Positions 14,736-25,238 of a stretch of 64,000 bases of DNA are shown one piece after another. The DNA comes from Candidatus Poribacteria bacterium (GTDB lineage: Bacteria > Poribacteria > WGA-4E > WGA-3G). The notes beneath the pieces were generated by a model. It worked only from the letters and a program-made list of their open reading frames with translations. It had not been told where the DNA came from and searched no databases. Both the position numbers and the translations under genes were made by a program. The stretch is taken from assembly GCA_009841255.1 (NCBI GenBank), contig VXMD01000082.1:62001-126000 (forward strand), in the 5' to 3' direction. How positions within the stretch are numbered: position 1 is the first letter of the stretch; each line of letters opens with the position of its first letter.

Positions 14736-17681
14736 TTATTTACGAGACAGAGCGTAATTTTCTTCCTCAAGTGAGATGTGGAACATCCTACGCTGTTGGG
14801 TCAGAATATGAAGCCTATTGCGGTCGACGGCAAGCGAGAGAACCTTACCCGGAACGCTTGGAGAAATCTGTTCCAATTTATTATCAGCATCCAAATGGTA
14901 GACTCCCGTATCACCGGCACCATACACACGGGTGTGATCTATAGCGAATCGGTCTATGACGATACGCTCACCTGTTCCATCGGTTAGCACTCGCCAGTGT
15001 GCGCCGGTTTGGGAACTCAAGACCCCTTTATCTGTTGCAATGTAAACCGTCGAGCCTGTAAAGACGATCTCCTTGAAACGGGTAAAGGAAAATGGAAGGC
15101 TTGACGTAACGTCTCTCCAACTATCCCCGCCATCAAGCGATTGAAACAACTTGCCATCTTGTTTGCCTACATAGACGACTTTCCCTGAGGCCGCTAACTT
15201 GAATCCATTTTTCAAATCCTTATCCACCTGTTCGTTGGTGTCTACCAATCCAGTATCTTTCCACTCTGCATCGCCGGGTTGCCATTTGAGAAGTTTTCCC
15301 TTATATTCGGCGTAAAACGTCTTGTCACTGATGGCAAACGATCCAACTTCTGTAAAGTCGGTAATCGTGTTCAACATGGTTGTCAATTGGTCGCCTTTTT
15401 CTACGCTATTGGGTCGAGTTTCTCTATCAAAAGCAGGAATACCGTGAACCGGAATAAATTCATTGCGCTTCGCGGATAAATAAAAGACGCGCACATTTTC
15501 CGCTTCAGGCACAATTTCATAAAGAACACCATCTGCAACGACTAACCTTGAATCAAATGAGAAATCAACGAGAAGCTGTTCCTCCGCTATGGGTTCAAGC
15601 GTGCGGTCATTAACAACTGAACCAATGCCTTTCCACGACACACCACCATCGGTTGATTCGGCAATAGCACTACCAGTATGTGCATAAAGTCTATTATTGT
15701 GTACAACCAAATTCAGTACCCTGGTTCCTACCATCCCATTCATAAAGGAATGCCACGATTTTCCGCCATCAACCGTGCGCTGAATACCGAACCCACCCGC
15801 TTTATAAAACGTGTTCTCATCTACAGCCACAACTGGAAATCTACTCACCATAAATGAATTCGGGTCAAACCCAAGGCTTATCCACGTTTGTCCCCGATCT
15901 GTTGAGTAGAAATTGGAGGCACCTGTCACCAGAAGTGCTTCGCCAGCAACCGAAATCTTCATACCAGATGGTACCCTCATAAACGAGGATTTACTCGTAG
16001 GCGTTATTTCAGTCCATGTCGCTCCTAAGTCAGCTGAGCGGAAAATCCTCTTTGAATCTAAATCTTTGACGCGTACCACTGGTCTTCTCTCGCGTGGACT
16101 TAATTCATGTGGTTTTACAATAGAAAGATCAGGGGCTGTTGCAACATAGAGGTCGTTTTTCATGACCTCCAAGGAATGAATGGCTTGTGATGGGGTCACA
16201 GGTAATTGTTGCCAAACACCTAAGCCAAAACGATAAAGCCCTCTGTTTGTACCAGCGAATAGTGTATTTCCAATTGTTGCCACTGCTGAGATTTTTTTCT
16301 CGGTCAATCCATTGTTAATAGGGGTCCAATGTGTGCCAGCATCCGTAGAGCGGAATACACCTTTGTTTTGAAGGGCAAGATACATCGCAATATCTGTTCG
16401 CGAGTTATCCGATCGTGTTTCATTCATCACAATGAGTCCTACGGCATGTCCCTTTGGCCGCGGGCAAAATACCTTCCACGTCTTACCTTCATCGGTAGAA
16501 GCAAATATCTCATCAGTAGCGACGATATAGGAAGTGCCTGCATACTCCGCCATAGGCATTCGGTTCCCTTTGATTGGAGCACTTATGTTGACTGGCATCC
16601 ACGTGGTTGTATCTGCTGGCAACCTATAGACTCCTGTTGGTGAAGCAGCGTAAAGCATTCCCGTGGACGTGGCAAAAATGTCAAATATAGGACCGGTTTG
16701 CGGTGCAATTGTCTGGGTCCATTGCAAGGTAGAAGACTTGGAGAAATTTACCCCCTCAGTGGGTGTTAGGACGGTATTAGAAATCTGCGCGCCGGTGCTG
16801 ACGTTTTTATCGGTGGTAACAGCACGTCCGACCTGATTTCGCACATTCGGTTTTGATTCAATATCAAGAACAATAGGTGCGTCAATAATTTCAATTGTGG
16901 GTTCAGATTGTGCCTCGAAACTATACGGCTTCTGAAAATAGTTAAGGTATTGATTGCTCAAACCCAATAGGAGCAGTGTCACCAAAACCACGGCTGCACC
17001 GAAAGCCGCCCACGGGAGTAGCGGCTTTCCAGCCGTAGGTGGCGTTAATTTAATATCGGCGACTTTCTGAACAATGCTCTCTGTTAGGCTGGCTGGTAAT
17101 GGCACGCTTCCGAGGACCTCTTGAACTAAGAGTTCTTCATCCTGTTTTAGACGTTCTCGTGCCCGCTGGAGTCGACTCGTGATTGTATGCACCGAGACCC
17201 CTAAAAATTTGCTAATTTCCTTTGTCGTCATTTCACCGAGATAGTAGAGCGTCATGACAGTGCGTTCGCTCTCGGGCAGTTTTTCCAGAAGTTTCTTAAC
17301 GAGTTCGTGACGATGCTCTCGGGCGTCCGTTTCGTGTTGCTCCGAAATATAGCGTTCATAAGACGTTCTGTGTACCTCTGCCACGGGGACATCCTCCAGT
17401 GATCCTATTAGAGATTTGTTGCCTTGGAGCCAAGTATTACAGAGTCGGTTTGTGATGACATAAAGCCACCCAGAGAACTGATTGGGGTCCTTTAGCTTTG
17501 GGAGATGCTTGTATACTCGAACAAAGGCGTCCTGGGTAATCTCTTCGGCATGATGAAAATCACCGATCCTCCGCCAAGCCAAAGCGTGAACACCTTTTTG
17601 ATGTTTTTTGACTAAAGCAGTGAATGCTTCGCTGTCGCCTGACAAAATCCTGCGGATGAGTTGAACATCATCTTCTACCAT
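14736..17681 (-). CDS. ECF sigma factor fused through a membrane helix to a beta-propeller
   Basis: A 981-residue protein. Residues 1-185 form a complete ECF sigma factor: region 2 (HAEEITQDAFVRVYKHL, then FSGWLYVITNRLCNTWL) and region 4 (ERTVMTLYYLGEMTTKEISKFLGVSVHTITSRLQRARERL). A single membrane helix spans about 221-241. The rest is a BNR/Ycf48-like beta-propeller with repeated F-x-S-T-D-x-G-x-T-W motifs (STDEGKTW, STDAGTHW, SADLGATW, STDRGQTW). The propeller is expected outside the cytoplasm with the sigma part inside, making a one-piece membrane sensor. It heads a unit with the two ABC-2 permeases. Confidence 0.85.
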   Translation of the reverse strand: MVEDDVQLIRRILSGDSEAFTALVKKHQKGVHALAWRRIGDFHHAEEITQDAFVRVYKHLPKLKDPNQFSGWLYVITNRLCNTWLQGNKSLIGSLEDVPVAEVHRTSYERYISEQHETDAREHRHELVKKLLEKLPESERTVMTLYYLGEMTTKEISKFLGVSVHTITSRLQRARERLKQDEELLVQEVLGSVPLPASLTESIVQKVADIKLTPPTAGKPLLPWAAFGAAVVLVTLLLLGLSNQYLNYFQKPYSFEAQSEPTIEIIDAPIVLDIESKPNVRNQVGRAVTTDKNVSTGAQISNTVLTPTEGVNFSKSSTLQWTQTIAPQTGPIFDIFATSTGMLYAASPTGVYRLPADTTTWMPVNISAPIKGNRMPMAEYAGTSYIVATDEIFASTDEGKTWKVFCPRPKGHAVGLIVMNETRSDNSRTDIAMYLALQNKGVFRSTDAGTHWTPINNGLTEKKISAVATIGNTLFAGTNRGLYRFGLGVWQQLPVTPSQAIHSLEVMKNDLYVATAPDLSIVKPHELSPRERRPVVRVKDLDSKRIFRSADLGATWTEITPTSKSSFMRVPSGMKISVAGEALLVTGASNFYSTDRGQTWISLGFDPNSFMVSRFPVVAVDENTFYKAGGFGIQRTVDGGKSWHSFMNGMVGTRVLNLVVHNNRLYAHTGSAIAESTDGGVSWKGIGSVVNDRTLEPIAEEQLLVDFSFDSRLVVADGVLYEIVPEAENVRVFYLSAKRNEFIPVHGIPAFDRETRPNSVEKGDQLTTMLNTITDFTEVGSFAISDKTFYAEYKGKLLKWQPGDAEWKDTGLVDTNEQVDKDLKNGFKLAASGKVVYVGKQDGKLFQSLDGGDSWRDVTSSLPFSFTRFKEIVFTGSTVYIATDKGVLSSQTGAHWRVLTDGTGERIVIDRFAIDHTRVYGAGDTGVYHLDADNKLEQISPSVPGKVLSLAVDRNRLHILTQQRRMFHISLEEENYALSRK

Positions 17682-17930: not shown

Positions 17931-19838
17931 TCATTCGCAAGGTGTTCCGCTCGCCCGGAAGAGTTGATTCGCTCGAAATTGATGTCCATCCACTAAGATC
18001 GTCGGGGAGGCTTTAATGCCTAATTCCGCGGCGCGCGTGATGTTCTCTCGGAAGAGTTGTTCCGCTTCCGGACTGTCAAACAACGCCTGAATCTTCGCGA
18101 CATCAATGCCGTGTTTCTCTGCACAGTTCTCCCAGCTCTTATCCAGTTTCTTACCCCGGCATAAGATATAGTCGAGGTACCGATTCGGGTATTCTTGTGC
18201 TATGAGGAGCTGCCGAATATTCTCCGCCACTTCCGGATAGCCGTGAAGACTCGTAAACGGCGTTATGTCTTGTGCAGAAGATTCCTTCTTCTCTCGGGCA
18301 ATAAACTGGAGCTTGAATTCGATCTCATCGCCAAATTCCTTCACGATTGGAAGCAGTTTCTCTTCGGCTTGAACGCCATACGGGCAATAACTCATCACAA
18401 AGAGTTCGAGTGTCGGTTTCCCCACCCGTGCGATGCGGGAGGTCAGGAGTTCTTCCAAGTTCATCGGCTCGCGGCTATGATCGATGTCCTTGGCATGCAA
18501 TGCCACTACTTCAACGAATCCGGGCGAATGTTTTGTGTCGTGGCATTCCAAACAGAGCGAGGTGTCGGCACCGCTGCGGATATTGCTCTTTTTCGGGTTG
18601 CCGACGTGCTGCTTGCCGGGACCGTGGCAGGTCTCACATTGCACCCCTTTGAATGCGGAATCTTGGGCACCTATCTGGAAACCCGTTGGATACCCAAAAC
18701 CGGTGGTATGGCAGGAGACACATCCTGCGTCAAAGTATCGTTCCTTTTTCAAGAGTGTTTGATAGGCGAAAGCGTGACGCGTCGCGGACCATTGAAGATA
18801 CTCTTGTTCATGGCATCGCTGACACGCCGTCGCTGAGACGTACCCGTTTTCCTGTTGTTGTTCTAATGTCTGTTCGGCAAACAGGAGAGGGACCAGCGTG
18901 CGGTTTTCTTCGGAGCCGTTTTGATAAAAATCTGTGAGCAACTGACGGATGGGTTTCGACTCGCCGACCTCCCCCGTCAATGCTAGTTCCGTGGCGTAAT
19001 GGCGTCCCAATTTTCCGCTCGCATCTATCCAGAGTGCCAACACGCCCAACGTTTTGCCTTCAGGTTTACAACCGACATAAAGCGTCCTATCTTCGGACAC
19101 CGTCGCGTCAATCTCATCGCGGCAGATGACGACATCGATATGCTCAGTTCCTTCGGGATCGCCCAAAGCGACAATAACATCTGCTGTCGGAGGCACGCCA
19201 TCACGATGATCGTGATCGCGTGACCTCCGAAGTGATGCCATTTCTTTGTCTGCCACACCAGTGACAAAACCGATAGTGTATTGTCCGATCTGTTTAATGA
19301 CAAACGGCTGTGTAAAGTCCTCTCCTGTCGCGCTTGGTGCTAAGAATGGGAACGTCGCAACGGCACGCTGCTGACGTAGATAGGTATCGTCATACGCGAG
19401 ATCCGATTTACTGAGTGCCACGGCGTCGTATTTCATTGTTGACATCGCCACCAAGTTGACCTCACACCGCTTCGCATCTATCTCTGCGTTCCCATCAAAA
19501 ATGTCTCCGGCATCCACCAGAAGCGTTGGGAATCCGAGTTTCCGAATCTGTTCCACAGCGTAAGCACGTCTTGAGAGTCCACCAGACTGCTCTTGATAAC
19601 ACCCGCACGGCTCCAAGTGACTCTTCGTGCCACCCGTATACAAGATAATCACCGAAGGTGGCTCGCCGTTTTTAAGTGCTGATAGCACGGTTTCCAAGCG
19701 ATCTCCAGAAACCGGACGGGCGTGTCGTTTCGTTTCTTGTATCTGTTTTAGCCTTTGAGATTCTGTCCATTGTGAGTAAAGAGGCGGTAACGTTACCGCC
19801 ACTGTTAAAAGTATTAAAACTAAGACTGCACGTTTCAT
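17931..19838 (-). CDS. Nucleotidase-like / tetraheme cytochrome c / thioredoxin-like fusion, exported
   Basis: A 635-residue protein with an N-terminal signal sequence (MKRAVLVLILLTVAVTLPPL). Residues about 50-290 resemble a metallophosphatase fold with EPCGCYQEQSGGLSRR and VDAGDIF. Four haem-binding CxxCH motifs follow at 339, 373, 401 and 429. From about 475 a DsbA/thioredoxin-like domain has SYCPYG and a cis-Pro-like SPTILVDG. Residues 204-218 (RRSRDHDHRDGVPPT) come from a 45-bp palindromic insertion. It is the last gene of the operon encoding a six-Cys peptide, so a role in redox or disulfide chemistry of that peptide is plausible. A sulfur-cycle role is an alternative. Confidence 0.7.
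   Translation of the reverse strand: MKRAVLVLILLTVAVTLPPLYSQWTESQRLKQIQETKRHARPVSGDRLETVLSALKNGEPPSVIILYTGGTKSHLEPCGCYQEQSGGLSRRAYAVEQIRKLGFPTLLVDAGDIFDGNAEIDAKRCEVNLVAMSTMKYDAVALSKSDLAYDDTYLRQQRAVATFPFLAPSATGEDFTQPFVIKQIGQYTIGFVTGVADKEMASLRRSRDHDHRDGVPPTADVIVALGDPEGTEHIDVVICRDEIDATVSEDRTLYVGCKPEGKTLGVLALWIDASGKLGRHYATELALTGEVGESKPIRQLLTDFYQNGSEENRTLVPLLFAEQTLEQQQENGYVSATACQRCHEQEYLQWSATRHAFAYQTLLKKERYFDAGCVSCHTTGFGYPTGFQIGAQDSAFKGVQCETCHGPGKQHVGNPKKSNIRSGADTSLCLECHDTKHSPGFVEVVALHAKDIDHSREPMNLEELLTSRIARVGKPTLELFVMSYCPYGVQAEEKLLPIVKEFGDEIEFKLQFIAREKKESSAQDITPFTSLHGYPEVAENIRQLLIAQEYPNRYLDYILCRGKKLDKSWENCAEKHGIDVAKIQALFDSPEAEQLFRENITRAAELGIKASPTILVDGHQFRANQLFRASGTPCE
19186..19230 (-). repeat. 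45-bp in-frame palindromic element, copy A
   Basis: It lies inside the nucleotidase/cytochrome gene and matches 23206-23250 at 44 of 45 bases. The ends GGAGG and CCTCC and the centre pair to form a long imperfect hairpin. It is exactly 15 codons and is read in the same frame in both genes, giving RRSRDHDHRDGVPPT. This is comparable to Rickettsia palindromic elements. Confidence 0.9.
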
Positions 19839-19912
19839 AAAATTAATTAAATCAAAAGTTCTTGATTTGTAATCCTTTTTTTAAGTTATCAGTTACCAGT
19901 GTCCAGTTAAGA

Positions 19913-19998: not shown

Positions 19999-21135
19999 TC
20001 AAAACAGTTGTATGAGTTTCAGGTAAAAGGGACCTTGGCAAAGAATCGTGAGAAGGGTACCGACAGTGATCACGGGAGCAAAGCGAATCGCGGGTTGAAC
20101 CCTTATCTGATTCCCGAATTCGGCGAGTGCGCCCTCCACTGCGAGGTGCTGCAATTGTGCTATCTTCTCGGTGTCAAGTCCCGCAGGATCGGGTGAGATA
20201 ACGATGTTATCATCGTGGCCGCTTGAAAACTCAACCTGTTTCTTCTCGTAACGGACAGTACCATCGGGTTGTGAAACCCGAACGATCTGTTCAGCGGGAA
20301 TCATACCGATTTGGAGATCCTTTACATCAACGGCATGCTCTAACGTCAGACGTGCTAAACTCAACACCAACTGCTTCGTAACCACGAAAGCAAGGAGATA
20401 GAGTCCTAAGAAGAAGGCAAAACCGGAGAGAAGTGCTGGCACAGACGGGCTTGACCGCACTGCGAGCCAGACACATGCAAACCCGACACTCGCGTAATAG
20501 ACCGGCGTTTTGGGCACGGGTGATAGCAATTTCTGTATTAAAACGAATGTCACTAAAACCGAGACCAGACGCAGAAACGGGTCGGGATGCCATCCAAGCA
20601 GCGCCAACAAGGGAGTCAATGCGGTTCCAACACCTATGAAGAAAAGGACATTGAAAAGTTTTTCAAGAAGGGATGCTTTTTGGAAGTTCACCATCAAGAA
20701 ACCGCGGAAAAGCGCCAATTTGTTTGGCACCGATACAAATCTGAAAAGTAGGTACCCCAGCATCCCAACTGAATACGGAATAATAATATTCAGGGCAAGG
20801 ATCAAAGGTGGAAAACTCAAGGGACCATTCAAGTTTCTGAAAAGCGATAGTGGAAAAATCAGACACAATCCCCAGAAGAGTTTGGAATCTCCGGGTGAGA
20901 AGACCCCGAACCAATAGAGGGCAAAGCCCATAAGCCCACTCCCAAGGAAAAGCGCTAAGATATAGAGCGGTGTTGTTGTGCCGAGATACCACGCCATCAA
21001 TTGACTCAGCGTCCCTCCATAAAGGAGTCCGAGCGAGCAGACGTTGTAGATCTTCTGTGTCTTCAGATCGGTATAACTGGCGTATCCACAGAAAATAAGC
21101 GCTAAAAAAATAAGAAAGTATTCATAGATTGACAT
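19999..21135 (-). CDS. A24 prepilin-peptidase-like membrane protease
   Basis: A 378-residue polytopic membrane protein. The N-terminal part has the two conserved aspartates of A24 aspartic proteases: YTDLKTQKIYN at about 22-32 and SPGDSKLFW near 80, the GxGD-type motif. It lacks the N-terminal cysteine/methylation domain of classical PilD, like CpaA/TadV enzymes, but carries about 200 extra residues with more membrane segments and a soluble C-terminal domain. It follows a gene for a Cys-rich peptide whose leader resembles a Flp pilin, so it may remove that leader. No pilus genes are nearby. Confidence 0.7.
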   Translation of the reverse strand: MSIYEYFLIFLALIFCGYASYTDLKTQKIYNVCSLGLLYGGTLSQLMAWYLGTTTPLYILALFLGSGLMGFALYWFGVFSPGDSKLFWGLCLIFPLSLFRNLNGPLSFPPLILALNIIIPYSVGMLGYLLFRFVSVPNKLALFRGFLMVNFQKASLLEKLFNVLFFIGVGTALTPLLALLGWHPDPFLRLVSVLVTFVLIQKLLSPVPKTPVYYASVGFACVWLAVRSSPSVPALLSGFAFFLGLYLLAFVVTKQLVLSLARLTLEHAVDVKDLQIGMIPAEQIVRVSQPDGTVRYEKKQVEFSSGHDDNIVISPDPAGLDTEKIAQLQHLAVEGALAEFGNQIRVQPAIRFAPVITVGTLLTILCQGPFYLKLIQLF

Positions 21136-21437: not shown

Positions 21438-21704
21438 TTAGAGATCCATGCATTTAGAGCTCCATGTCCCCAAACAGGTCCCATAATCGATTGGACCACT
21501 ACAGGTATAGAAACAACCTTCTCCTGAATCACAGTCACTGTCGTCCGCGCACTCAAATCCAGCCTGAACGGGTGAGGGGACCATCGTCTGTGCTAACAAA
21601 ACACTCCCTGTCGCTACACCGAGTGCAAGGGGGGCTTTGGCACTGACGCGTCCATCTTCGGACTCAAGGAACCGCTTGATTTTACTGCGGATGTTATTCT
21701 TCAT
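21438..21704 (-). CDS. Six-cysteine secreted peptide precursor with pilin-like leader
   Basis: An 88-residue peptide. The leader has a basic start and KRFLESEDGR, then a hydrophobic stretch of about 20 residues (LALGVATGSVLLAQTMV). This resembles Flp-type prepilins, where A24 peptidases cut after the Gly, but VQA-GF at 47-51 also fits a signal peptidase I site. The core has six cysteines at 52, 58, 64, 68, 77 and 85, enough for three disulfides, and many Ser/Thr that could be glycosylated. The ATG follows directly on the stop of the upstream glycosyltransferase (TAAATG) with AAAGGAG inside that gene. The best guess is a secreted glycosylated Cys-rich peptide. Confidence 0.7.
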   Translation of the reverse strand: MKNNIRSKIKRFLESEDGRVSAKAPLALGVATGSVLLAQTMVPSPVQAGFECADDSDCDSGEGCFYTCSGPIDYGTCLGTWSSKCMDL

Positions 21705-23504
21705 TTATGCCTTTTCTCCTTTCTGCTGGTGCTCCACTCCAGCGAGATTGATTTCCACACGGTTAGGAGGAAACCCATTTCCAGCACGAATTGCCTCGCA
21801 AGTGGGAGTAGAGCCCTCCCGCTGGAAATGCTTAAAAACCGATTCTACTTCAGCAGGTGTGTGCTTCTCAGCTAACACACTTGCCAAAGCCGTTTTAAGG
21901 CTATCATATCTGTTGATTCCCAACCGATACGTGCAGGACCTTAAGGTACCCGTATCGGGCTCGTACCGACGACAGAAAATCGGTGGGTAGGGGCTGGGTG
22001 ACCCAGCCCGTAGGGGCGAGGTAACCCCGCCCCTACCATCGTCTGTTTTTCGTTGGAGACTCTCCTCAAACACTTTGACGAGTTCTCGCGCAGCGTCCTT
22101 CCGGGTATGTCGTTGAACAGTCTGATCTGTAAATCTTTCACGCAGTCCGTGCCTTTTGGAAGGCTGCAACCATTGGTGTATTGTTCTCGATAACTCCGCC
22201 ATCGGCACATGAAAATTGCCGAAGTTATCCCAGTCCGACTTCACGGCAACCCCAGCCTCCGCGACTTCCGTTGGCATCCCATACTTCGTCATTACGACAC
22301 AAGCGGCACCGTATGCCATCGCCTCCAAAACGATCGAAAGCGGCGTCCCTGGCATTGCGGGGAAGCACACCAGATCCAGTGCCTGAAAGAATATCGGTAA
22401 AACCGACCGAGTCTCCTCATCGTCAGCACTGAAAATCACCACGTTTTCCGGCAGATGGTAGGGGTTAGGTGACCCAGCCCCTACTAACATCGTGTCATAG
22501 ACAAAAATCGCGAGATGTCGGTTGGCGCGTGCAAATTCAGATATCCATGCTGCACCACGATTCGGTTCAAAACCAGAGATCAGTCCAACAATGGGTTGCT
22601 TTGTGAACATCGGCTTCTCAAAAATAGCGGCAGTATGCTGCTTCGCCAATGTCTTGTCACCCATCGGCGCAACGACATCTATTCCATCGGGAATCACTCG
22701 CACGTTTTCCGTAGACACCCCCAATTCAGCGAGCCACTCCTTCATCCACGAGGCTTTGACCACCAGTGTATCTATTGAACGCTGGAACGCACTGAGCGTC
22801 AGAAGGATTTTCGGCAAAGCGTGGCGCAACTGCTGGACACCGTCTATGCAGTGGACAACTGGGACATCAGGAACCCGGTAGTATAACAGGTCATCCGTCA
22901 AGAATTGTGAGAGGAGTAGGATACCGTCGTAATTATCCATCGCATACCAAGGCATCATCAAGGTGCCCTTGTCGGTTCCGTGTAAATTCCGAACCTGAAC
23001 GCTATCGAAAGTCTGAAGATCCTGCTTTTCTGCTTGGGAAAAAGCCAATGTTTCCAACTCAGCGAACTCTGAGAGGTTCGTCAAAAGTTGGTAGCGGTTC
23101 AATCCCGTAAAGTAGTCCAACGCTGACTTTTCCCTCGTAAAATGGAAGGGGACCAACACCTTCGGCTTCTGATTTGTAGTGGTTGGTTTCACCGCCTCTA
23201 CTTTTGTCGGAGGCACGCCATCGCGATGATCGTGATCGCGTGACCTCCGAGGGCGCAAAATGGAACCTTCCCTTCCGAGTCGTTCCAAACGTTCAATCCC
23301 GTCGAAGATAGCAGTTAATTTGTATTCCTGCTTCAATTCTTCTACGATTTGGTACCGCGTCTGTGCCTGATAACGGGACAGAACCTCCCATTCCACGTCG
23401 TTTACCTGAATGATGTCGCCCGTTTCAAGATCCGCGACATATTTGCGATCGTCTCGTTCAAATTTATGATGATGCCCCAAGTGGTAATGGGTGTGAGATA
23501 CCAT
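21705..23504 (-). CDS. Glycosyltransferase with PqqD-like N-terminus, degenerate donor motif
   Basis: A 599-residue protein. A His-rich start (HTHYHLGHHH) is followed by a PqqD-like domain at about 15-85 (YVADLETGDIIQVNDVEWEVL), the type that binds RiPP leaders. Residues 86-100 are the 45-bp palindrome insertion, lying at the domain junction. The GT-B part has VIPDGID and then GTPLSIVLE, so the first Glu of E-x7-E is Gly. Two more palindromic repeat sites (21987-22036, 22458-22484) are read through in the C-terminal third. It is 21 bp downstream of its paralogue and adjoins the peptide gene. Confidence 0.75.
   Translation of the reverse strand: MVSHTHYHLGHHHKFERDDRKYVADLETGDIIQVNDVEWEVLSRYQAQTRYQIVEELKQEYKLTAIFDGIERLERLGREGSILRPRRSRDHDHRDGVPPTKVEAVKPTTTNQKPKVLVPFHFTREKSALDYFTGLNRYQLLTNLSEFAELETLAFSQAEKQDLQTFDSVQVRNLHGTDKGTLMMPWYAMDNYDGILLLSQFLTDDLLYYRVPDVPVVHCIDGVQQLRHALPKILLTLSAFQRSIDTLVVKASWMKEWLAELGVSTENVRVIPDGIDVVAPMGDKTLAKQHTAAIFEKPMFTKQPIVGLISGFEPNRGAAWISEFARANRHLAIFVYDTMLVGAGSPNPYHLPENVVIFSADDEETRSVLPIFFQALDLVCFPAMPGTPLSIVLEAMAYGAACVVMTKYGMPTEVAEAGVAVKSDWDNFGNFHVPMAELSRTIHQWLQPSKRHGLRERFTDQTVQRHTRKDAARELVKVFEESLQRKTDDGRGGVTSPLRAGSPSPYPPIFCRRYEPDTGTLRSCTYRLGINRYDSLKTALASVLAEKHTPAEVESVFKHFQREGSTPTCEAIRAGNGFPPNRVEINLAGVEHQQKGEKA
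21987..22036. repeat. Two tandem GTAGGGG palindromes inside a gene
   Basis: GTAGGGGCTGGGTGACCC and GTAGGGGCGAGGTAACCC type units lie back to back. Together they add an in-frame Pro/Gly/Arg-rich linker to the C-terminal part of the glycosyltransferase. Confidence 0.85.
22458..22484. repeat. GTAGGGG palindrome inside a gene
   Basis: A 27-bp unit read in frame in the GT-B core of the glycosyltransferase, as part of LVGAGSPNPYHLP. It is the third copy in the same gene. Confidence 0.8.
23206..23250 (-). repeat. 45-bp in-frame palindromic element, copy B
   Basis: It has one mismatch against 19186-19230 and encodes the same 15 residues in the same frame. It joins the PqqD-like domain to the glycosyltransferase domain. 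Confidence 0.9.
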
Positions 23505-23525: not shown

Positions 23526-25238
23526 TCAGACAGTTCCATCGATTAAACCGCGAACCCTTTTAAGAATTGCCTTTGCTTCGGTTGCATCGGGAACCAGTTC
23601 GGCAAGAAGTGCTTCCGCTTCTCTGGTGGTATGGTCCTTCAAAATGCTCAGCACCAGTCCATCTTCAACGCGCAACGGGTACATCGAATCTCGGATAAGA
23701 CACTGCTCGTAATGCGCATTCATACTCAGGACAAATGACCTATATTTCCGGTCCTGTTGTCCTTCTTCTAAGGGTTCTGCGGGTGCAAACACATTTAAGA
23801 GTCTGTTTGGATTGCGAAGTTTCTTTTTCCGATGAAGTTCCTCAAACAACTGCACAATGCGGTGTGCAGTCTTATCCCAAGTGAACAGTACAGCCCGTTC
23901 TCTCGCTTTCTGGGAAAGCGTCTGCCACAGTTCACGGTTGCTCAATAACGAGTTAATCTTCTTGGAAAAATCCATTGGACACGGATAACTCACAAGGGTT
24001 GCTATGTCTTGGTCGAAATTCTCGGCAGCGGCAACCAATCCGGCATCTCCGACAACCGATGGGACACCATCGAAATTTGGGACGACCGGTGGAACTCCGC
24101 ACGCCATTGCCTCAAGCACCGTCAACCCAAACGTCTCCTCACCTGACATCGACAGAAAACAGTAAACATCGAACGCGTTGTAGATGAGCGGTAGTTTCTC
24201 ACGGGGATGGAATCCTACGTAGACGAGGTTATCAGGAAGTTTCCGGGAGGCATATCGTCCCATATCGGGTCCTGCAATCAAAAAAATCAGATGTGGATTC
24301 AGCTCCGCCAATTTTAAGTAGACAGATGCTCCTTTTTCCGACTGCACTCTGGAGAGATACCCGACAGTCGGTGCCACCTCAATGCGATCGTCTCCGACCG
24401 CTTTTGCAATTTTACGCTTTGCCGCCGTTTTATCCATCGGCTTAAACAATGCGGAATCCACGCCGTTGGGTAATGTATTGAAGAAACTCGGATCCCAGAC
24501 ATAATCGGCATAAAAGTCTCGGACGTAATCTGACGGCGCGGTAAACCCATCACAATCTCGCATTGCGGCATAATGCCGAAGAATGGAATTCATTGCCTGC
24601 CCGCCGTGTCCACGTGGTGCATGACTCTGAACCAGGATCGGTGGAAACTCCGGGTATCGGTAAAGTGGAAGCAGCCACTTCTCATGCTCCAGATGCAAGG
24701 TCAGAATGCCGTAATACGTTTCTGCTATTTTCGACCGAAGGCGGACCAAATCATCAACACCGATATCGACTTCATACACCCCATTCGTGATCTTCCTGTT
24801 TCGGCAACCCGCGAAGTGGAGGTCTGCGTATTTGGTGAGATGCTGAATCATATAGGAAAGTGCCATGTTGGTGCCGGCGGATAACGTTTCAATATCAAAA
24901 AACGAATCCACGGTAGCACTGGGTATCACAACAAGCAGCTTTTTCCACTTGCTTTCCGTCGCGAGACTTTCCCGTAAGTCTTCACCGCGATTGAAGAGCA
25001 AGCCTTCTTTCTCAAGTTCCGCGAATCTCTCAAACGCCTCAGCAATGTCGTCTGCTTCATAGGCGGCACTCAGTACCTGGACAATTGCCTCGTCCGTCTG
25101 TGTTTCTGCGAGTTTTAGGATGTCCGCCATGACAGGGGAGAGTTCGACGACGCGCGCTTTCTCGAGATCTGCGGCATAAAATACACCCTCCTCTTCAAAG
25201 AGATGGAGTTGGTGCAACATCTTTGGAAAATTGAGCAA
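23526..25238 (-). CDS. Glycosyltransferase (GT4) with PqqD-like N-terminus, intact
   Basis: A 570-residue protein and the first gene of the second peptide operon. Residues about 10-95 form a PqqD-like module (FYAADLEKARVVELSPVMADIL), then a GT-B enzyme with LPNGVDSALFKP, IFLIAGPDMGRY and an intact E-x7-E (ETFGLTVLE), followed by AMACGVPPVVPNFDG. A leader-binding domain fused to a glycosyltransferase suggests that the acceptor is the ribosomal peptide encoded downstream. The catalytically weaker paralogue follows after 21 bp. Confidence 0.8.
   Translation of the reverse strand: MLNFPKMLHQLHLFEEEGVFYAADLEKARVVELSPVMADILKLAETQTDEAIVQVLSAAYEADDIAEAFERFAELEKEGLLFNRGEDLRESLATESKWKKLLVVIPSATVDSFFDIETLSAGTNMALSYMIQHLTKYADLHFAGCRNRKITNGVYEVDIGVDDLVRLRSKIAETYYGILTLHLEHEKWLLPLYRYPEFPPILVQSHAPRGHGGQAMNSILRHYAAMRDCDGFTAPSDYVRDFYADYVWDPSFFNTLPNGVDSALFKPMDKTAAKRKIAKAVGDDRIEVAPTVGYLSRVQSEKGASVYLKLAELNPHLIFLIAGPDMGRYASRKLPDNLVYVGFHPREKLPLIYNAFDVYCFLSMSGEETFGLTVLEAMACGVPPVVPNFDGVPSVVGDAGLVAAAENFDQDIATLVSYPCPMDFSKKINSLLSNRELWQTLSQKARERAVLFTWDKTAHRIVQLFEELHRKKKLRNPNRLLNVFAPAEPLEEGQQDRKYRSFVLSMNAHYEQCLIRDSMYPLRVEDGLVLSILKDHTTREAEALLAELVPDATEAKAILKRVRGLIDGTV

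Follow-up and report, generated by a model that had tools for sequence, protein, structure and literature searches.

A tetraheme and DsbA-like fusion protein encoded beside cysteine-rich, RiPP-like peptides in Poribacteria, with a possible role in disulfide formation

Exported thiols are oxidised by the DsbA-DsbB and VKOR-thioredoxin systems, with the electrons passing to respiration, and in the Mia40-Erv1-cytochrome c relay a CxC dithiol oxidant is finally drained by cytochrome c. The fusion protein we describe here, from Poribacteria, hallmark sponge symbionts, would have a role like that of DsbA-DsbB and VKOR-thioredoxin, although it has a one-cysteine site, and haems instead of a quinone-linked DsbB or VKOR. 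Its proposed scheme resembles the Mia40-Erv1 relay in the CxC dithiol and the cytochrome c drain, but there is no flavin and no sequence relation, and all modules lie on one polypeptide. The fusion also resembles the UshA-like (seleno)protein family NF041198, in which a c554-type haem domain follows an UshA-like domain whose motif is PCGC or, in selenoprotein members, PCGU; forms with CxU are listed as a COG0737 UshA-like protein in PMC2398784 and as NF041198 in PMC13188914. It differs in scoring below the family cut-off, in bearing a DsbA/GILT-like domain at its C-terminus, and in lying within peptide clusters.

These clusters share RRE-fused glycosyltransferases and short precursors with a conserved leader and a variable core with the RRE-containing RiPP clusters, for which the available sections of two papers name RRE-glycosyltransferase fusions as candidates for new clusters (RRE-Finder, PMC7470986) and, in an update, PF00535 RRE fusions (PMC12710340). 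The same sections do not mention Poribacteria, and they do not describe GT4-type enzymes, an A24 protease, a tetraheme-DsbA fusion, or hypervariable Cys cores, all of which are found here. Our literature search, whose coverage is incomplete, found no paper on Poribacteria Cys-rich peptides, such a cluster, or a multihaem-DsbA fusion. The peptide family of the cluster is new; RiPP-like clusters and Dsb-type oxidation are kinds known already.

The window, by which we mean the whole 64,000-nucleotide stretch of Candidatus Poribacteria contig VXMD01000082.1 that was analysed, had been reported in an earlier note to contain a fusion of nucleotidase-like, tetraheme, and thioredoxin-like domains. We confirmed the 635-aa open reading frame, which lies on the minus strand (Table 1), and Pfam and NCBIfam domains bear the description out. 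It is not an assembly artefact, because full-length homologues with 66-80% identity are found in ~30 Poribacteria contigs, and a paralogue family with 37-42% identity is also present; the homologues are conserved phylum-wide. A contig scan with exact short peptide patterns, which reach close relatives only, gave fusion matches that were all from Poribacteria. The four CxxCH motifs (residues 339-343, 373-377, 401-405, and 429-433) do lie between the CGC-containing and DsbA-like domains, as the note had it, and 27 of 27 aligned sequences retain the PCGC motif, the eight haem Cys and four haem His, H355, H411, H437, H454, C485, C560, and C634. Judged from these alignments, chance is ruled out as the source of the motif pattern. 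An AlphaFold model of the whole protein has a pLDDT <50 in the haem part, and its outer domains alone are usable.

Table 1. Features of the fusion gene and its neighbours (positions in the window)
Feature	Position	Strand	Evidence or remark
Fusion protein, 635 aa: signal anchor, UshA-like domain with PCGC, tetraheme cytochrome, DsbA/GILT-like domain	17931..19838	-	
Hydrophobic N-terminal signal anchor, residues 1-24	19767..19838	-	Sequence; conserved in homologues
PCGC motif, residues 77-80, invariant	19599..19610	-	Alignments
46-bp palindromic repeat, in frame, RRSRDHDHRDGVPPT, residues 204-218 of the fusion	19185..19230	-	15 residues missing from homologues
Tetraheme c554-type domain, residues 338-454, four CxxCH and conserved His 355, 411, 437, 454	18477..18827	-	Pfam, PDB, alignments
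DsbA/GILT-like domain, residues 473-634, one-cysteine C485-P-Y-G, cis-Pro motif SPT	17937..18422	-	Pfam, Foldseek, alignments
A24 prepilin-peptidase-like membrane aspartic protease, directly upstream of the fusion	19999..21135	-	Pfam, alignment
Cys-rich precursor peptide, 88 aa: leader with SEDG/SEEG motif and hydrophobic stretch, then six-Cys core	21438..21704	-	
RRE-glycosyltransferase B, RRE-like residues 1-85; second palindromic-repeat copy at 23205-23250	21705..23504	-	
RRE-glycosyltransferase A, N-terminal RRE (bbb-aaa), GT4/GT-B catalytic part	23526..25238	-	
ECF sigma factor joined via hydrophobic segment to BNR/sortilin-type propeller	14736..17681	-	Same strand, ~250 bp after the fusion

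The N-terminal part matches NCBIfam UshA_like_PCGU (NF041198) at 4.6e-63 (213.6 bits, under the curated cut-off of 275), and two-domain Poribacteria homologues score above this cut-off; LE.CGC and the four CxxCH motifs are invariant in 11 members, two-domain ones included. The UshA fold is still recognised by Foldseek (E 7.8e-9). The metallophosphatase-like domain of the earlier note keeps its fold and its PCGC, but has lost its metal ligands. The ligands in UshA are D41, H43, D84, and N116. Alignment with E. coli UshA places SKSD opposite the metal-site GNHE; the N116-H117 positions are K/E/Q-S/T/N, DxH reads G/N-T-K/Q, and D84 is mostly N or G in relatives. With these ligands replaced, it is very unlikely that the domain works as a metallophosphatase, and we rejected nucleotidase activity. 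The existence of a selenocysteine form of the two-domain family suggests that the motif is redox-active.

The central domain matches Pfam Cytochrome_C554 (PF13435; 1.8e-15, 58.1 bits against a curated 20.8) and PDB entry 1bvb (9.6e-9), and c-type cytochrome assembly genes are present. Three of the four extra His are common to DsbA-bearing and two-domain forms, and H437 is found only in DsbA-bearing forms and is Tyr in the most distant relative (locus L076); three bis-His haems and one variable haem are therefore likely.

The C-terminal domain matches Pfam DSBA (PF01323; 2.4e-9, 37.7 bits) above the curated cut-off of 25.6, so its earlier description as DsbA-like with SYCPYG (residues 483-488) stands, but the site has one Cys and is not a classical CxxC. 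It reads C-P-Y/F-G/A in 27 of 27 aligned sequences, save for P-to-S/R changes, and the cis-Pro loop SPT is invariant among them. C560, C572, and C634 are all lost in L076, leaving only C485 as universal. When the DsbA part alone was compared with PDB by sequence, no match was significant; Foldseek places the domain near GILT, with a TM of 0.68 on mouse GILT (6nwx). The active site of GILT is CxxC and its signature CQHGxxEC, whereas the fusion, with which it has the fold in common, has CPYG and SLHGYPEV. A longer fusion of 963 aa also exists, which has an additional C-terminal region and an SLCPFA site (L083:6967-9855; G010:C1:2213557-2215296).

On the minus strand the order is RRE-glycosyltransferase A, RRE-glycosyltransferase B, six-Cys peptide, A24 peptidase, fusion, and ECF-sigma/propeller, and this gene set recurs across loci. 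That the fusion ends an operon for the peptide is roughly right, although the ECF-sigma/propeller gene follows closely; a frequent neighbour of these clusters, it may regulate them. The A24 peptidase scores 28.3 bits against a Pfam cut-off of 26.5, with its two catalytic Asp (D23 and GD83xK) invariant in 16 sequences. The glycosyltransferase N-termini are RREs by profile match to the CteB RRE (5wgg, 1.5e-13), modelled by AlphaFold with high confidence as bbb-aaa on a GT4 fold near MshA. The model likewise shows three strands and three helices for residues ~479-569 of glycosyltransferase A, a possible second RRE-like domain.

We collected 75 distinct precursors, which share a Cys-free leader made up of ..F[LI]xSEEGxVG.. 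and a hydrophobic stretch that in most cases ends in an A-x-A-like motif. Their cores are hypervariable, with 2-10 Cys in even number in 69 of the 75 (56 of 62 after dereplication), as well as Trp and Tyr; single cores are weakly similar to known disulfide modules, EB and WAP among them. The leader shows a weak likeness to that of the His-Xaa-Ser peptide HxsA3 (NF038309), with 10 of 23 peptides matching, the best at 2.5e-5 and far under the cut-off (13 bits for the window peptide against a curated threshold of 65), but the peptides have no HxS repeats. A pilin reading, considered for the Flp-style leader and adjacent A24, was rejected, with no pilin Pfam match in 23 peptides. Because RREs are joined to the glycosyltransferases and short precursors combine a conserved leader with a hypervariable core, the cluster appears RiPP-like. 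Its core machinery is conserved while its predicted disulfide-rich products are many and diverse, the pattern expected of secreted toxins, defensin-like peptides, or host-interaction peptides.

Does the fusion travel with the peptide, as the earlier note had suggested checking? Among 85 Poribacteria genomes both are present in 32, the fusion only in two, the peptide only in eight, and neither in 43 (Fisher p 1.4e-13), and at genus level the corresponding counts are 22, 1, 6, and 9 (p 2.5e-4); both p-values overstate the significance, as the genomes share ancestry and are not independent. In the two fusion-only genomes (G015 and G067) the fusion lies on contigs <5 kb, one genome (G055) was scored fusion-positive though its contig stops before the DsbA part, and some of the eight peptide-only genomes are fragmented. 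One cluster remnant (L069, in G024) has a peptide and both RRE-glycosyltransferases but neither A24 nor fusion, which suggests that the latter two were lost together.

Of 30 adequately sampled fusion loci (at least 3.5 kb upstream and at least 0.5 kb downstream), 29 have a peptide within 10 kb (28 by script, with L047 added from a separate reading). A24 lies directly upstream of the fusion in 23 of the 30, and RRE-glycosyltransferases are likewise present in 23. The fusion and A24 appear to be a core set, as five loci without RRE-glycosyltransferases in the fetched flanks (L039, L042, L044, L077, and L085) keep them with the peptide. The association spans families; outside the window's own family the order varies and the members persist. 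Thus L062 (G051) has A24, peptide, propeller, two RRE-glycosyltransferases, and fusion, then another peptide within ~50 bp, and in L076 (G061) a peptide likewise follows the fusion tail within ~50 bp. Genomes with only the two-domain UshA-c554 form have a peptide in one of seven cases, and no peptide, A24, or RRE adjoins the four two-domain loci, lacking DsbA, that were read (L080-L082 and L084). Sulfur or nitrogen respiration loci, raised in the earlier note as a competing setting, are not where the homologues occur; 29 of the 30 adequately sampled loci have the peptide gene instead.

Our survey of oxidants and thioredoxin folds covered DsbB, VKOR, and Pfam DSBA. Profile searches found DsbB in 0 of 85 Poribacteria genomes and VKOR in three, none fusion-bearing, with models that do give matches in control genomes; this absence is also true of peptide-less genomes and is not specific to the cluster. 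The sole DSBA-family matches in the window's own genome are three fusion paralogues. Across 37 genomes of the genus, 49 of 49 DSBA matches fall on the fusion or on fragments of it, and there is no match in the 15 genomes that lack it.

We favour, with moderate confidence, a reading in which the fusion is a membrane-anchored, exported thiol-disulfide enzyme, wired to cytochromes and dedicated to the leader-bearing Cys-rich peptides. The RREs of the two glycosyltransferases, recognised by homology, would bind the precursor leader where these enzymes are present, and the peptide would be modified in the cytoplasm. The adjacent A24 protease would then remove the leader, probably by cutting behind the conserved SEEG Gly, with the core reaching the periplasmic side. 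There the one-cysteine DsbA/GILT-like domain may capture core thiols via C485, the invariant PCGC pair of the degenerate UshA-like domain could be the redox dithiol that makes the disulfide, and the fused four-haem domain would take the electrons to respiratory acceptors, replacing DsbB or VKOR. Disulfide-linked electron transfer, proposed in the earlier note, gains weight from the even Cys parity of the cores, the near-absence of DsbB and VKOR, and the confinement of DSBA to the fusion in the genus; the oxidative direction, the order of steps, and the transfer from Cys to haem we infer.

Rather more tentatively, we suggest a possible new disulfide route, in which a multihaem c-type cytochrome, a CxC dithiol, and a thioredoxin-fold domain on one chain replace DsbB or VKOR, are kept only in genomes making these undescribed, hypervariable, RRE-recognised Cys-rich peptides, and form their disulfides. 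Such a route would offer a testable explanation for the oxidation of exported cysteines in bacteria where neither DsbB nor VKOR is detectable, and the cluster gives a first context for an UshA-like (seleno)protein family without an assigned function so far. Several points speak against the favoured reading: the DsbA-like domain has one active-site Cys, the sole one left in that region in L076; GILT, which it most resembles in fold, is a reductase; it is unusual for electrons to pass directly from thiols to haems; and eight genomes have the peptide with the fusion undetected.

The main rival has the electrons run in the opposite direction, with the haems feeding the DsbA/GILT-like domain so that it reduces or isomerises wrong core disulfides, in DsbC- or GILT-like proofreading, or keeps thiols free. 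The association data fit this equally well and the one-cysteine CPYG site and GILT-like fold suit it, but we consider it unlikely, in that an isomerase would need an oxidase, none of which was found in the DsbB, VKOR, and DSBA searches, and the invariant PCGC pair would be left without an obvious job. It is improbable that the peptide is instead an electron carrier for the fusion, or that the fusion has small sulfur compounds or reactive oxygen as its substrates, with the cluster merely housing a respiratory or detoxifying cytochrome. The family that joins UshA-like PCGC/PCGU to c554 occurs widely without DsbA and includes a selenocysteine form (PMC2398784, PMC13188914), which points to some other, older redox role for the two-domain core, yet it is the DsbA-bearing form that tracks the peptide while the two-domain form does not, and no sulfur or nitrogen respiration genes were seen in the loci read. 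Least credible is a DsbA-like domain that does no more than dock or present the exported peptide, with the cytochrome part driving a different modification, a non-disulfide oxidative crosslink. The one-cysteine site and the Trp and Tyr beside Cys in the cores would allow it, but even Cys parity and the weak resemblance of single cores to modules such as EB and WAP favour plain disulfides.

The gene behind many of the peptides encodes a propeller of the PD40 or BNR type or a laminin-G-like protein. These partners have a common W[GA]xxK tail (for example TTLWGRLK), possibly a sorting tail, in L024:4225-5262, L060:1493-2491, L062:1736-2695, L076:1247-2143, and others, and it is also found on other Poribacteria proteins.

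The two copies of the 46-bp palindromic repeat in the window are 98% identical and lie in two neighbouring genes. The genome has nine copies at no more than three mismatches (a reversed control gave 0), four of which read RRSRDH.HRDGVPP in open frames, and the repeat resembles protein-coding palindromic elements. A self-complementary 27-nt repeat family, GGTAGGGGCTGGGTGACCCAGCCCGTA, is found in and around the cluster at 19912, 21986, 22009, and 22457.
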